NCBI RefSeq assembly: GCF_003387475.1
Contig: NZ_QUNO01000004.1
Location: 62,001-126,000, forward strand
DNA length: 64,000 nt
Direction: 5' to 3'
From: Kutzneria buriramensis
GTDB lineage: Bacteria; Actinomycetota; Actinomycetes; Mycobacteriales; Pseudonocardiaceae
Of the stretch, positions 58,783-63,093 are shown piece after piece. The number at the start of each line of letters is the position of its first letter. Position 1 is the first letter of the stretch. Position numbers and translations under genes: made by a program. The notes under the pieces were generated by a model. It did no database searches, was not told the origin of the DNA, and saw nothing but the letters and a program-made list of their open reading frames with translations.

Positions 58783-61587
58783 TCACGCGACGATGTTGAC
58801 CAGCCGGCCCGGCACCACGATGACCTTGCGCGGCTCCTTGCCGCCCAGCAGCTCGGCCACCTTCGCGTCGGCCAGCGCGACCGCCTTGACCTGCTCCTGG
58901 TCGGCGTCGGCGGCCACGGTGATCCGCGCCTTCACCTTGCCGTTGACCTGGATCGGGTACTCGACCGTGTCGTCGACCAGGTAGCGCTCGTCGGCCACCG
59001 GGAACGGCCCGTGCGCCAGCGAGGTGTCGTGGCCCAGCCGCTGCCACAGCTCCTCGGCGATGTGCGGGCACAGCGGCGCCAGCATCAGCACCAGCGGCTC
59101 GGCGACCGACCGCGGCGTGACGCCGGCCTTGGTCAGGAAGTTGTTCAGCTCGATCAGCTTCGCGCCGGCGGTGTTGTAGCGCATCTCCGCGTAGTCCTCG
59201 CGGACGCCGGCGATCGCCTTGTGCAGCGCGCGCAGCGTCGCCTCGTCCGGCTCCGCCTCGCTGACCCGCAGCTGCCCGGTCTCCTCGTCGACCATGTTGC
59301 GCCACAGCCGTTGCAGGAAGCGCTGCGCGCCGACGACGTCCTTGGTCGCCCACGGCCGGGAGACCTCCAGCGGCCCCATGGACATCTCGTACAGCCGGAA
59401 GGTGTCGGCCCCGTAGTTGTCGCACATCTCGTCGGGGGTGACGACGTTCTTCAGGCTCTTGCCCATCTTGCCGTACTCGCGGTTGACCTCCTGGTCCTGC
59501 CAGAAGTACTTGCCGTCCCGCTCGACGACCTCGTCGGCCGGCACGTACACGCCGCGCGCGTCGGTGTAGGCGTAGGCCTGGATGTAGCCCTGGTTGAACA
59601 GCCGGCGGTACGGCTCGTCCGAGCTGACCTCGCCCAGGTCGAACAGCACCTTCTGCCAGAACCGGGAGTACAGCAGGTGCAGCACGGCGTGCTCGACGCC
59701 GCCGATGTACAGGTCCACGCCGCCCGGGTCGGCGGAGCCGTGGATCTCCGGGCGCGGGCCCAACCAGTACTTCTCGTTGACCGCGTCGACGAACCGGTCG
59801 GTGTTCTCCGGGTCCACGTAGCGCAGCTGGTACCAGCAGGAGCCGGCCCAGTTGGGCATGGTGTTGGCGTCGCGCCGGTACATCTTCGGCCCGTCGCCCA
59901 GGTCCAGCTCCACGTTCAGCCACTCGGTGGCGCGGGACAGCGGCGGCGACGGCTCGGTGTTCGGGTCGTTCGGGTCGAAGGTCCGCGGCGAGTAGTCGTC
60001 CACCTCGGGCAGCTCGACCGGCAGCTGGTCGACGGGGATGTCGTGGGCGACGCCGTGCTCGTCGTAGACGATCGGGAACGGCTCGCCCCAGTAGCGCTGC
60101 CGGGAGAACAGCCAGTCGCGCAGCTTGTACTGCACGGTGCCCTCGCCGGCGCCGCGCTCGGCCAGCCACTCGGTGATCGCCTTCTTGGCCTGCACGACGT
60201 CCATGCCGTCCAGGAAGCCCGAGTTGATGGCGGGGCCCTCGCCGGTGAAGGCCTTGCCGTCGAAGCCTTCCGTGGGCTGCACGGTGCGGATGATCGGCAG
60301 CCCGAACACCTCGGCGAAGTCCCAGTCGCGGGTGTCCTGACCGGGCACCGCCATGATCGCGCCGGTGCCGTAGCCCATCAGCACGTAGTCGGCGACGAAC
60401 ACCGGGATGCTCGCGCCGTTGACCGGGTTGACCGCGTACGAGCCGGTGAACACACCGGTCTTGTCCTTGTTCTCCTGACGGTCCAGTTCGGACTTGCGGG
60501 AGGCCGCCAGCCGGTACGCCGCAACGGCTTCCGCCGGGGTGGCCGCGCCACCGGTCCACCGGTCGTCCACATCGGACGGCCAGGCGTCGGCGGTCAGCGA
60601 GTCCACCAGCGGGTGCTCCGGGGCTACTACCAGGTAGGTCGCGCCGAACAGGGTGTCGGGCCGGGTGGTGAAGACCTCGATGCTGTGCTCGCCGGACGCG
60701 AAGCGGACCCGGGCGCCGTGCGAGCGCCCGATCCAGTTGCGCTGCATCGACTTGATCTTCTCGGGCCAGTCCAGCCGGTCCAGGTCGTCGACCAGGCGGT
60801 CGGAGTAGGCGGTGATGCGCATCATCCACTGGCGCAGGTTGCGCCGGAACACCGGGAAGTTGCCGCGCTCGCTGCGGCCGTCCGCGGTGACCTCCTCGTT
60901 GGACAGCACGGTGCCCAGGCCCGGGCACCAGTTCACCGGCGCCTCGGACAGGTAGGCCAGCCGCCGTGAGTCGATCTTCGCGCGGCGCTCGTCGTCGGAC
61001 AGCGTCGCCCAGGACGGGTCCTTGGCGTACTCGGCCTCCAGCTCGGCGATCGGCCGCGCCCGCCCGGCCGACTCGTCGTACCAGGAGTTGTAGATGCGCA
61101 GGAAGATCCACTGCGTCCACCGGTAGTAGCCCGGGTCGATGGTGGAGATCCGGCGGCGCTCGTCGTGGCCCAGCCCCACCCGGCGGATCTGCCGCAGGTA
61201 GGTGGCGATGTTGTCCTCGGTGGTCTTGCGCGGGTGCTGCCCGGTCTGCACGGCGTACTGCTCGGCCGGCAGGCCGAACGCGTCGAAGCCCATGGTGTGC
61301 AGCACGTTCCGGCCGTTCATCCGGTGGAACCGGGCGAACACGTCGGTGCCGATGAAGCCCAGGGGGTGGCCGACGTGCAGGCCCGCGCCCGACGGGTACG
61401 GGAACATGTCCTGCACGAACATCTTGTCGGCGGGCAGCGGCGCGTCGCTGCTCAGCGCGCCGACCGGGTTCGGCGCGTGGAAGGTGCCGTGCTCCTCCCA
61501 GTGCTGCTGCCAGCGGCGCTCGAACTCGCCGGCCAGTTCGGCGGTGTAACGGTGGGCCGGCGCCGCCTCAGCGGTCTGCTCGGTCAT
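58783..61587 (-). CDS. leuS: Leucyl-tRNA synthetase
   Basis: A 934-residue class I synthetase that charges tRNA-Leu. The HIGH motif is H71-VGH74 in [17 protein letters not shown]. The editing (CP1) domain carries [17 protein letters not shown] and [19 protein letters not shown]. The KMSKS loop is K707-MGKS711 in [12 protein letters not shown]-terminal anticodon domain follows with [13 protein letters not shown]. Length and motifs match actinobacterial LeuRS, with an extended insert before the anticodon domain. ATG 61587 follows GAGAGGGA. Transcription is probably controlled by the leader-peptide attenuator just upstream. Confidence 0.97.
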
Positions 61588-61623
61588 CGAAGTCCCTCTC
61601 GTCGTACCTGCCCCTGACAACAC

Positions 61624-61734
61624 AAAACCCCCCAGCCCGGATGGGCATGGAGGGCTGCCGCGTCGACCACTTCGTCAGGAGGTCAACGCGGCTAAATAAG
61701 GAGCAGGCGGACCGTGCTCATGGGCCGAAGTTTA
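61624..61734 (-). promoter_or_regulatory. Leader-peptide transcription attenuator of leuS
   Basis: On the minus strand, in order: a possible -10 box TAAACT (61729-61734); a leader ORF beginning eight bases later; a stem 61681-61691 with 61658-61668 (11 pairs, one G-U); and a terminator at 61624-61654 of CCCTCC/GGGGGG plus GCCC/GGGC arms followed by TTTT. Stalling at the Leu codons would favour an alternative structure and leuS expression. The parts are visible; the mechanism is inferred. Confidence 0.82.
61692..61721 (-). CDS. leuS leader peptide with three consecutive Leu codons
   Basis: A nine-residue ORF, MSTVRLLLI then TAG. The codons CTG, CTC and CTT (three different Leu codons in a row) lie two codons before the stop. 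The ATG is eight bases past a possible -10 box, so the message may be leaderless. The following hairpins place it as a ribosome-stalling sensor of charged tRNA-Leu. Confidence 0.8.
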   Translation of the reverse strand: MSTVRLLLI

Positions 61735-61752
61735 GCGCACACTCTGTAGGTC

Positions 61753-63093
61753 ATGCGCTGGGTTTGGATCTGCCTGGTTCTGTCGCTGGCCGCCTGCACC
61801 GCGACGCCCCCGCCCCCTCCGGCGCCGAGTACCACCACGACCACCGTCCTGCCCGCCATCGCGGCCGGCGACTGGCCCACGTACCACTTCGACAACCAGC
61901 GCACCGGCTGGAAGGACGATCTGCACATGGTGGGCACGCTCGCGCTCGCCTGGCACGCCAATCTGGACGGTCCCGTGTACGGCCAGCCGCTGGTCGTCGG
62001 CACGCACGTGCTGGCCGCGACCGAGAACGACACGGTCTACGCGCTGGATCCGGCGACCGGCCAGGTGCAGTGGCACACCCACCTGGGCACGCCGATGCCG
62101 AAGCAGGGCCTGCCGTGCGGGGACATCGATCCGCTGGGCATCACCGGCACCATGGCGTACGACCGGCTCACCGGCCGGCTGTTCGCGGTGGCGGAGACCG
62201 CGGGCGGCAGCCACACCCTGGTCGGCCTGGACGTCGACACCGGCACGGTCGAGGTGCAGGCGATCGCCGACCCGCCCAAGGGAGACACGGTCGCCTACGA
62301 GCAGAGCGCCGCCCTTGCGGTGAACGATGGCCGGGTCTTCATCGCCTACGGCGGCCTGACCGGCGCCTGCGGCAACTACGTCGGCACGGTGCTGTCGGTC
62401 CGCACCGATGGCACCGACGCGCACAGCTATCTGGTGCCGACCAGGGGCAAGGCGGGCTTCTCCGGTCCCGCCGGCGGCATCGTCGACAACTCGCGGCTGC
62501 TGTTCGCCGCCGGCGCCGGCGCGTCGACCGGCGGCCAGTACGACGACAGCGACTCGGTGCTGGCGCTGACCACCGACACGTTGAACCGTACCGACATCTT
62601 CACCCCGCCGACCTGGGACGACGACAATGCGCACGCGGTGGATCTCGGCGCGACGAGTCCGGTCCTGATGGGCACGCACGTGATCGTCACGGGCAAGCGC
62701 GGTGTCACGTACGTGCTAGAACAGGCCGATCTCTCGCATGTGGTCTCGCAGGTGCCGACCTGTCCATCGCAGGGCGCGCCGGTGGTGGCCGCCAACACGC
62801 TGGTCCTCCCGTGCCAGACCGGCCCCAAGGCGTTCAGCTACGCCAACAACGGGACGTTGACGCCGCTCTGGACCTCGCCGGTCGCGGCGGCCGGCTCGCC
62901 CGCGGCCGGTGGTGCGGCGTTCTGGGTGATCGACCCGGCCAGTGGCGTGCTGTACGCGCTGGATCCGGCGACCGGCGCGGTGCGGAGCCAGCTGTCGATC
63001 GGCCCCACACCGCGCTACGCCTCGCCGACGCTGTCCGTCGACCACGCCTACGTGGGAACGATGGACGGCGTCGTTGCGGTGGCCGGCGCCTAG
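61753..63093 (+). CDS. PQQ-like beta-propeller lipoprotein
   Basis: A 446-residue lipoprotein. A signal peptide with lipobox LAAC (Cys15) is followed by a Pro/Thr-rich spacer (TPPPPPAPSTTTTTV) and about seven PQQ-like propeller blades with the words DNTVYALDPATGQVQW-like (NDTVYALDPATG), RLFAVAETAGG, and VLYALDPATGAV, and a WPTYHFDNQRTGW opening. Such proteins are scaffold or binding modules on the outer face of the membrane; no quinone ligands are evident. The 3' end overlaps the phytase-like gene by four bases on the opposite strand. Confidence 0.85.
   Translation: MRWVWICLVLSLAACTATPPPPPAPSTTTTTVLPAIAAGDWPTYHFDNQRTGWKDDLHMVGTLALAWHANLDGPVYGQPLVVGTHVLAATENDTVYALDPATGQVQWHTHLGTPMPKQGLPCGDIDPLGITGTMAYDRLTGRLFAVAETAGGSHTLVGLDVDTGTVEVQAIADPPKGDTVAYEQSAALAVNDGRVFIAYGGLTGACGNYVGTVLSVRTDGTDAHSYLVPTRGKAGFSGPAGGIVDNSRLLFAAGAGASTGGQYDDSDSVLALTTDTLNRTDIFTPPTWDDDNAHAVDLGATSPVLMGTHVIVTGKRGVTYVLEQADLSHVVSQVPTCPSQGAPVVAANTLVLPCQTGPKAFSYANNGTLTPLWTSPVAAAGSPAAGGAAFWVIDPASGVLYALDPATGAVRSQLSIGPTPRYASPTLSVDHAYVGTMDGVVAVAGA

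Follow-up and report, generated by a model that had tools for sequence, protein, structure and literature searches.

The short stretch of DNA upstream of leuS raises the question of whether this synthetase gene is governed by the supply of its own amino acid and, if so, by what kind of switch. The locus lies in a window of 64,000 nucleotides of Kutzneria buriramensis DNA, the whole stretch that was analysed. Our answer, held at a probability of roughly 0.82, is a ribosome-mediated transcription attenuator through which leuS responds to charged tRNALeu, mainly via tRNALeu(GAG). A first-pass annotation had likewise proposed a leucine attenuator before leuS on the minus strand; all of its pieces are present, and a check of relatives supports the interpretation, with conservation extending to the leader and its Leu codons, to the two stems and to the leaderless spacing.

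The controlled gene occupies 58783..61587 on the minus strand and encodes 934 aa by the start used, the annotated start being suggested by a GAGAGGG sequence at 61600-61594. The nearest named relatives of its product belong to Kutzneria (95 per cent identity to Kutzneria sp. CA-103260). Upstream on the same strand stands the annotated nine-residue leader, MSTVRLLLI*, at 61692..61721 (A of the ATG at 61721), a short ORF with control codons for the amino acid of the gene's product. Its Leu codons CTG CTC CTT fill 61698..61706, and the CTT at 61700-61698 is the proposed sensor codon. An extended -10 element, TAAACT, is found at 61729..61734 (minus strand) as had been noted, although 7 nt rather than eight bases separate it from the ATG, and the leader is probably leaderless. 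Of the 82 distinct leaders aligned, 42 have 6 nt and 40 have 7 nt between the -10 element and the start codon, which fits a leaderless start; TANNNT was itself a search criterion, and the element is informative only by this spacing and its flanks. In 80 of 81 loci the second base upstream of TANNNT is a G (61734-61736 in the window), and a conserved -35 element was not seen in the promoters of the same 81 loci. On the plus strand a divergent 446-codon ORF (61753-63093) starts just 31 nt from the leader start, and the two promoters may therefore overlap.

The leader runs directly into a helix, here called stem A, whose 5' arm (X, GCCGCGTTGACC) lies at 61681..61692 and whose 3' arm (Y, GGTCGACGCGGC) lies at 61657..61668, both on the minus strand. 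Both arms are identified by the fold and by pair counts, and the 5' arm also by the swap test described below. A stem had been claimed here with 11 pairs beginning one base past the leader stop; the stem is real, but it has 12 pairs (GCCGCGUUGACC / GGUCGACGCGGC) and overlaps the stop codon, its first nucleotide being the G of the TAG. The minus-strand terminator hairpin (61656-61626) starts without a gap after stem A and is followed, as annotated, by a U run, UUUU at 61624..61627, the first two U of which are paired in the hairpin. Beyond the terminator, CAGGGGCAGG (61607..61616, minus strand), seen by eye, recurs in many Pseudonocardiaceae leaders and could pair with the run of Leu codons, a pairing that is weakly supported. 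Folding the 99-nt window leader gives -56.5 kcal/mol, whereas 200 shuffled versions average -34.5 (sd 2.9), so that z is -7.5 and 0/200 fold as well. No Rfam family, T-box included, matched at gathering score when the whole library was run over the whole window, and a T-box riboswitch was rejected for want of a match to the Rfam T-box model.

Relatives were gathered in two ways. The first set started from 110 leuS loci (sets of 30 and 80, a few places counted twice), and its leaders were picked out by LeuS homology, a -10 element and an LL run, with no covariance model involved. A leaderless Leu leader candidate with LL was found at 89 of the 110 loci and was lacking at 21; removal of five duplicates and of two Cellulomonas loci without a terminator (L087, L093) left the 82 distinct leaders. 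A covariance model built from these, with matches counted at E <= 0.01, finds the window and Streptomyces-like loci alike, the layout of leader, stem and terminator being common to both, and the window locus thus carries a homologous leader, stem and terminator in the Streptomyces-type position before leuS. Matches occur in 226/394 genomes of the class and in 93/138 genera; among genomes without a match, the 20 listed all fall in one family (f8), and there are 148 further. The genome containing the window has a single strong match, the leuS leader itself (1.1e-22), the next being at 0.16. LeuS is encoded in 114 of 120 fetched match regions (tblastn), and the other six are a LeuS recognized by eye (L125), a region at a contig end (L151), a leuA gene (L222) and three without a leader. 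Dropping L212, L214, L218 and L221 (leader not found), L222 and three duplicates left 112, which with the 82 gives 194 leaders, and 191 once three unparsed leaders (L030, L040, L216) are set aside.

The locus might instead be an ordinary constitutive terminator preceded by a chance ORF and free of regulation. A leaderless ORF with LLL stands upstream of 72/110 leuS loci and appears in 0/2180 dinucleotide shuffles of these regions, and together with the codon register and the covariation given below this makes such an account barely credible.

The leaders obey a simple codon rule. In 186 of the 191 parsed leaders a CTY codon ends 5 nt before a conserved GCCG of stem A and is in frame, just as the window CTT ends 5 nt before stem A. 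The codon at this register is CTT in 177, CTC in 9 and CTG in 0 of the 186, and the three unparsed leaders each show CTT there by eye. The model was trained mostly on CTT leaders, which biases the second set towards CTT; in the first set, gathered without it, the last Leu of the run is CTT in 79/82 leaders, against 26/5708 Leu codons in the leuS genes, where CTG makes up 5290/5708 (93 per cent). In the long ORFs of the window the figure for CTT is 27/1394. The five parsed leaders out of frame, of Pseudonocardia type (L059-L062, L102), are not counted in the rule; by eye, placing the stem one base earlier lets CTT, CTC, CTC, CTT and CTT fit. When the stem start is instead taken greedily as the longest stem, which admits chance outward pairs, 150/194 leaders are in frame and in 44 the stem extends outwards, so that the rule concerns the conserved GCCG.

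What surrounds the register codon is variable. It may be anywhere from the 6th to the 9th codon of a leader of 7-17 aa, it is preceded by CTC (97), CTT (54), CTG (33) or a non-Leu codon (two), and the residue after it may be T, S, I, R, A, P, G or V. One leader, VASQQQRLIGPR (L198), has a single Leu codon, which is the register CTT. Given the variable surroundings and this single CTT, the sequences argue that the codon, and not the nascent peptide, would be what is sensed. The alternative that CTT is kept as an RNA-pairing constraint was unsupported by the swap test against the terminator. The stop codon lies at base +7 of stem A in 147/186 leaders and overlaps the first base of stem A in 28/186. 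The short MSTVRLLLI* form is common to four Kutzneria-type loci (L001-L004), while in L005 and L006 CAG replaces TAG and the leader extends as ...LLLIQPR* to a later TGA. Since the early TAG is also found outside Kutzneria-type loci, early and later stop positions appear interchangeable.

A GAG anticodon reads CTT through wobble. The window's own genome yielded 53 tRNA matches, whose Leu anticodons are gag (two), cag, taa, tag and caa; aag is absent among them, and on this gene list CTT would thus be read only by tRNALeu(GAG), by a G-U wobble. Selective charging theory, as presented in the available part of PMC1183508, holds that the best control codon is that of the isoacceptor losing its charge first. 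Published work on ribosomes, again in the portion available, states that the bacterial mRNA channel accommodates 11 nt beyond the first base in the P site and describes two frameshift stem-loops that strongly slow A-site tRNA binding when placed 11 or 12 nt downstream, and not at 13 (PMC7282821). When CTT occupies the A site, the GCCG begins 11 nt beyond the first base of the codon in the P site (position +12). From this geometry and the published channel length, a waiting ribosome would leave stem A whole, positioned at the mRNA entrance, and by analogy stem A might delay decoding at that codon still more. A ribosome at the stop would instead cover the 5' arm of stem A.

How the two helices act on one another is less obvious. 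The leu attenuator of E. coli and Salmonella works by a classical exchange of pairings. The annotation had called the present arrangement a complete attenuator, which is correct for leader, stem and terminator, but a classical antiterminator pairing with the terminator is not evident: here the stems are compatible and abut. A consensus fold of the 82 leaders contains exactly two stems, and covariation extends over both (97.1 per cent of cells pair; 59 are double-changed against 18.1 in column shuffles, with 0/500 reaching that number; further pair types are no more numerous than in the shuffles, 117/500 of which reach the observed count). One such change is CCGCGC:GCGCGG to CCGUGC:GCACGG in Micromonospora-type loci. 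An intrinsic terminator between leader and leuS is thus supported by both the consensus fold and covariation. The swap test joins every 5' segment to 3' segments taken from other species, over 2000 permutations; in it, stem A (X:Y) scores z -12.1 and the terminator z -9.9, each with 0/2000 permutations as low. Within the Micromonospora set, where the sequences are nearly alike, X:Y is weakly better than swapped (105/2000).

In 81/82 leaders the minimum-energy fold contains stem A and the terminator at the same time. For 188 of the 191 leaders the gap that separates stem A from the first pair of the terminator could be measured; it amounts to 0 nt in 93, 1 nt in 82, 2 nt in 8 and 3 nt in 5, so that 175/188 have a gap of 0-1 nt, while the span of stem A ranges from 21 to 68 nt. 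Minimum-energy folds of the 82 loci give 0 in 62, 1 in 18 and 2 in 1, with one not resolved. An earlier fold with a short cut-off had returned gaps of 4-6 nt in 46/191 leaders (in full, 0 in 73, 1 in 59, 2 in 8, 3 in 5, 4 in 36, 5 in 9 and 6 in 1); the pattern used there clipped the terminator, and these long gaps were judged an artefact.

Among the chosen segment pairings tested, none was an antiterminator that would exclude the terminator by base pairing. Pairing of the Leu codons with the 3' arm of the terminator (W), and of Y with the segment Z, looked plausible by eye as classical antiterminators and lacked consistent swap-test support; X:W reached 33/2000 over all loci and 1799/2000 in Pseudonocardiaceae, and was unsupported within either family set. 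Because both stems coexist and the alternative pairings have no consistent support, a plain exchange of base pairs is unlikely to be how the switch works, and a classical antiterminator is not evident.

Three other ways of using the same parts have to be weighed. The first keeps the sensor and has stem A and the terminator compete for pairing partners where they meet, a scheme put forward for ilvBNC of Corynebacterium glutamicum, where, in the available text, such competition has mutational support (PMC11857589). The 44/194 leaders in which stem A can extend outwards past the standard start, into terminator-adjacent bases (e.g. L002, L003), would suit such a scheme; yet the two stems share zero bases in the minimum-energy fold of the window, and most relatives have no overlap under the standard register. 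We consider this possible, if doubtful.

Stem A might instead be a pause hairpin or an anti-antiterminator that times polymerase and ribosome, the true antiterminator being another pairing. In the E. coli trp leader, too, two stems (1:2 and 3:4) are compatible with each other, as stem A and the terminator are here, and the pairing tests covered chosen segments. Against this, neither the consensus fold nor the swap test returned any other conserved pairing, and we think this account unlikely.

Control might, thirdly, be translational, with the Leu-codon run pairing with a stretch before the leuS ribosome site, as the description of the leuA LEU element in the available part of PMC1262725 proposes for that element. 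The Leu codons do pair weakly better with their own post-terminator stretch than with swapped ones (7/2000 overall, 7/2000 in Pseudonocardiaceae), but the effect is 0.7 kcal/mol and is absent in the Micromonospora set (394/2000), and a terminator with a U run lies between the leader and the ribosome site. Such control is very improbable at this locus.

We favor transcription attenuation in which antitermination would come from abutment, since both stems coexist and the gap between them is near-constant while the span of stem A varies. Transcription would start at or beside the leader ATG, and a ribosome would translate eight codons, having to decode CTT with tRNALeu(GAG). When the charged tRNA is plentiful, the ribosome would go on to the stop, within or bordering the 5' arm, and block stem A; the terminator would then form and transcription would stop. 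When CTT is kept waiting, the ribosome would presumably stall where stem A begins immediately beyond the mRNA channel, and the complete stem A, standing against the base of the terminator, would hinder its closing inside RNA polymerase, such that leuS is transcribed. The predicted outcome is more leuS when charged leucine tRNA is short. A more specific form can be put forward tentatively, a one-codon gauge in which CTT (rarely CTC) waits in the A site with stem A at the channel mouth and charged tRNALeu(GAG) races against stem A closure; once closed, stem A might hinder A-site tRNA binding, an effect seen in vitro with stem-loops 11-12 nt downstream, lock the stall and crowd the terminator without any exchange of base pairs.

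Several loci depart from the common pattern. No attenuator was seen at L011, L034, L037, L046, L047 and L052 (Amycolatopsis-type) or at L079, L083-L086 and L088 (Cellulomonas), where by eye a TANNNT lies close before the leuS start; this proximity suggests a leaderless leuS at these loci, as though through a shift of the promoter or loss of the leader. In the Cellulomonas loci L087 and L093 the leaders, VLASTFLLRRRGETL / VLVRTLLLRRRGETP, lie some 135 nt ahead of leuS and lack a terminator. An 8-mer, CCGCGGCG, is present twice, once within the leader and once immediately ahead of the leuS AAGGA; an intervening CGUCGCGG could pair with either copy, possibly a translational version of the switch; folds of these two loci with a masked ribosome did not yield a clean exchange. 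One genome (G265) has two leuS loci (L144, L145), 42 per cent and 69 per cent identical to the window LeuS over matched parts, with an attenuator at each. The leuS model also matched a leuA gene, recognized by eye (L222 in genome G109). Its leader, MKHLLLIESARH (CTG CTC CTT), is located some 77 nt along the reverse strand and is accompanied by a stem and a terminator.

A synthetase attenuator that had been predicted in two Streptomyces species is now seen to be widespread in the class, and it comes with a sharp, testable rule, a codon of one isoacceptor at one register. If the abutment reading is true, a hairpin can block a terminator without sharing bases with it, and the geometry of the ribosome channel is linked to a gene switch. 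The codon register and the abutment of stem A on the terminator were not found described in the literature searched, whose coverage left out most subscription journals, and these regularities look new.

The locus shares features with several known systems, compared here through the parts of their published accounts that were available. The leuA LEU element is likewise an actinobacterial leader with a Leu-codon run, and differs in forming a pseudoknot without a terminator and in its proposed action on a ribosome site (PMC1262725). In ilvB1NC of Mycobacterium tuberculosis a ribosome at the stop likewise masks an antiterminator that stalling on branched-chain codons frees, and changes of the control codons, tested in vivo by the authors, abolished induction; that system has a non-leaderless 166-nt leader and other gene and codons (PMC13236596). 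The ilvBNC leader of C. glutamicum also has a conserved CUU control codon and antiterminator and terminator hairpins that touch at their bases. It differs in its operon, in combining Leu and Val control codons and in having three hairpins, and its boundary trinucleotide can join either hairpin, whereas shared bases are not seen in the window (PMC11857589). The leu operon of E. coli and Salmonella relies likewise on rare Leu control codons, CUA there, and exchange of CUA for CUG in the Salmonella leader lowered sensitivity (PMC1183508). That operon controls biosynthesis rather than a synthetase.

The closest counterparts are in Streptomyces. The first-pass annotation had singled out a Leu leader for leuS as being of interest, T-boxes (ileS) being better known for actinobacterial synthetase genes. 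Such a leader is not new in actinobacteria, being already known from Streptomyces: S. avermitilis and S. coelicolor were predicted to have leuS attenuators by Seliverstov and colleagues in 2005 (PMC1262725), and the leuL2 leader of S. lividans, MRAVRLLLSEPR, was mapped as leaderless by RNA-seq in 2021, a hairpin and U run following it (PMC8079986). Compared by text descriptions, the window has a leader of 9 instead of 12 codons, because its TAG stands before the stem, and a different terminator. The Streptomyces leuS attenuator likewise lies before leuS and has a leaderless leader with three Leu, a hairpin and a U run, and the S. lividans peptide is identical to leaders in the present set (e.g. 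L223).
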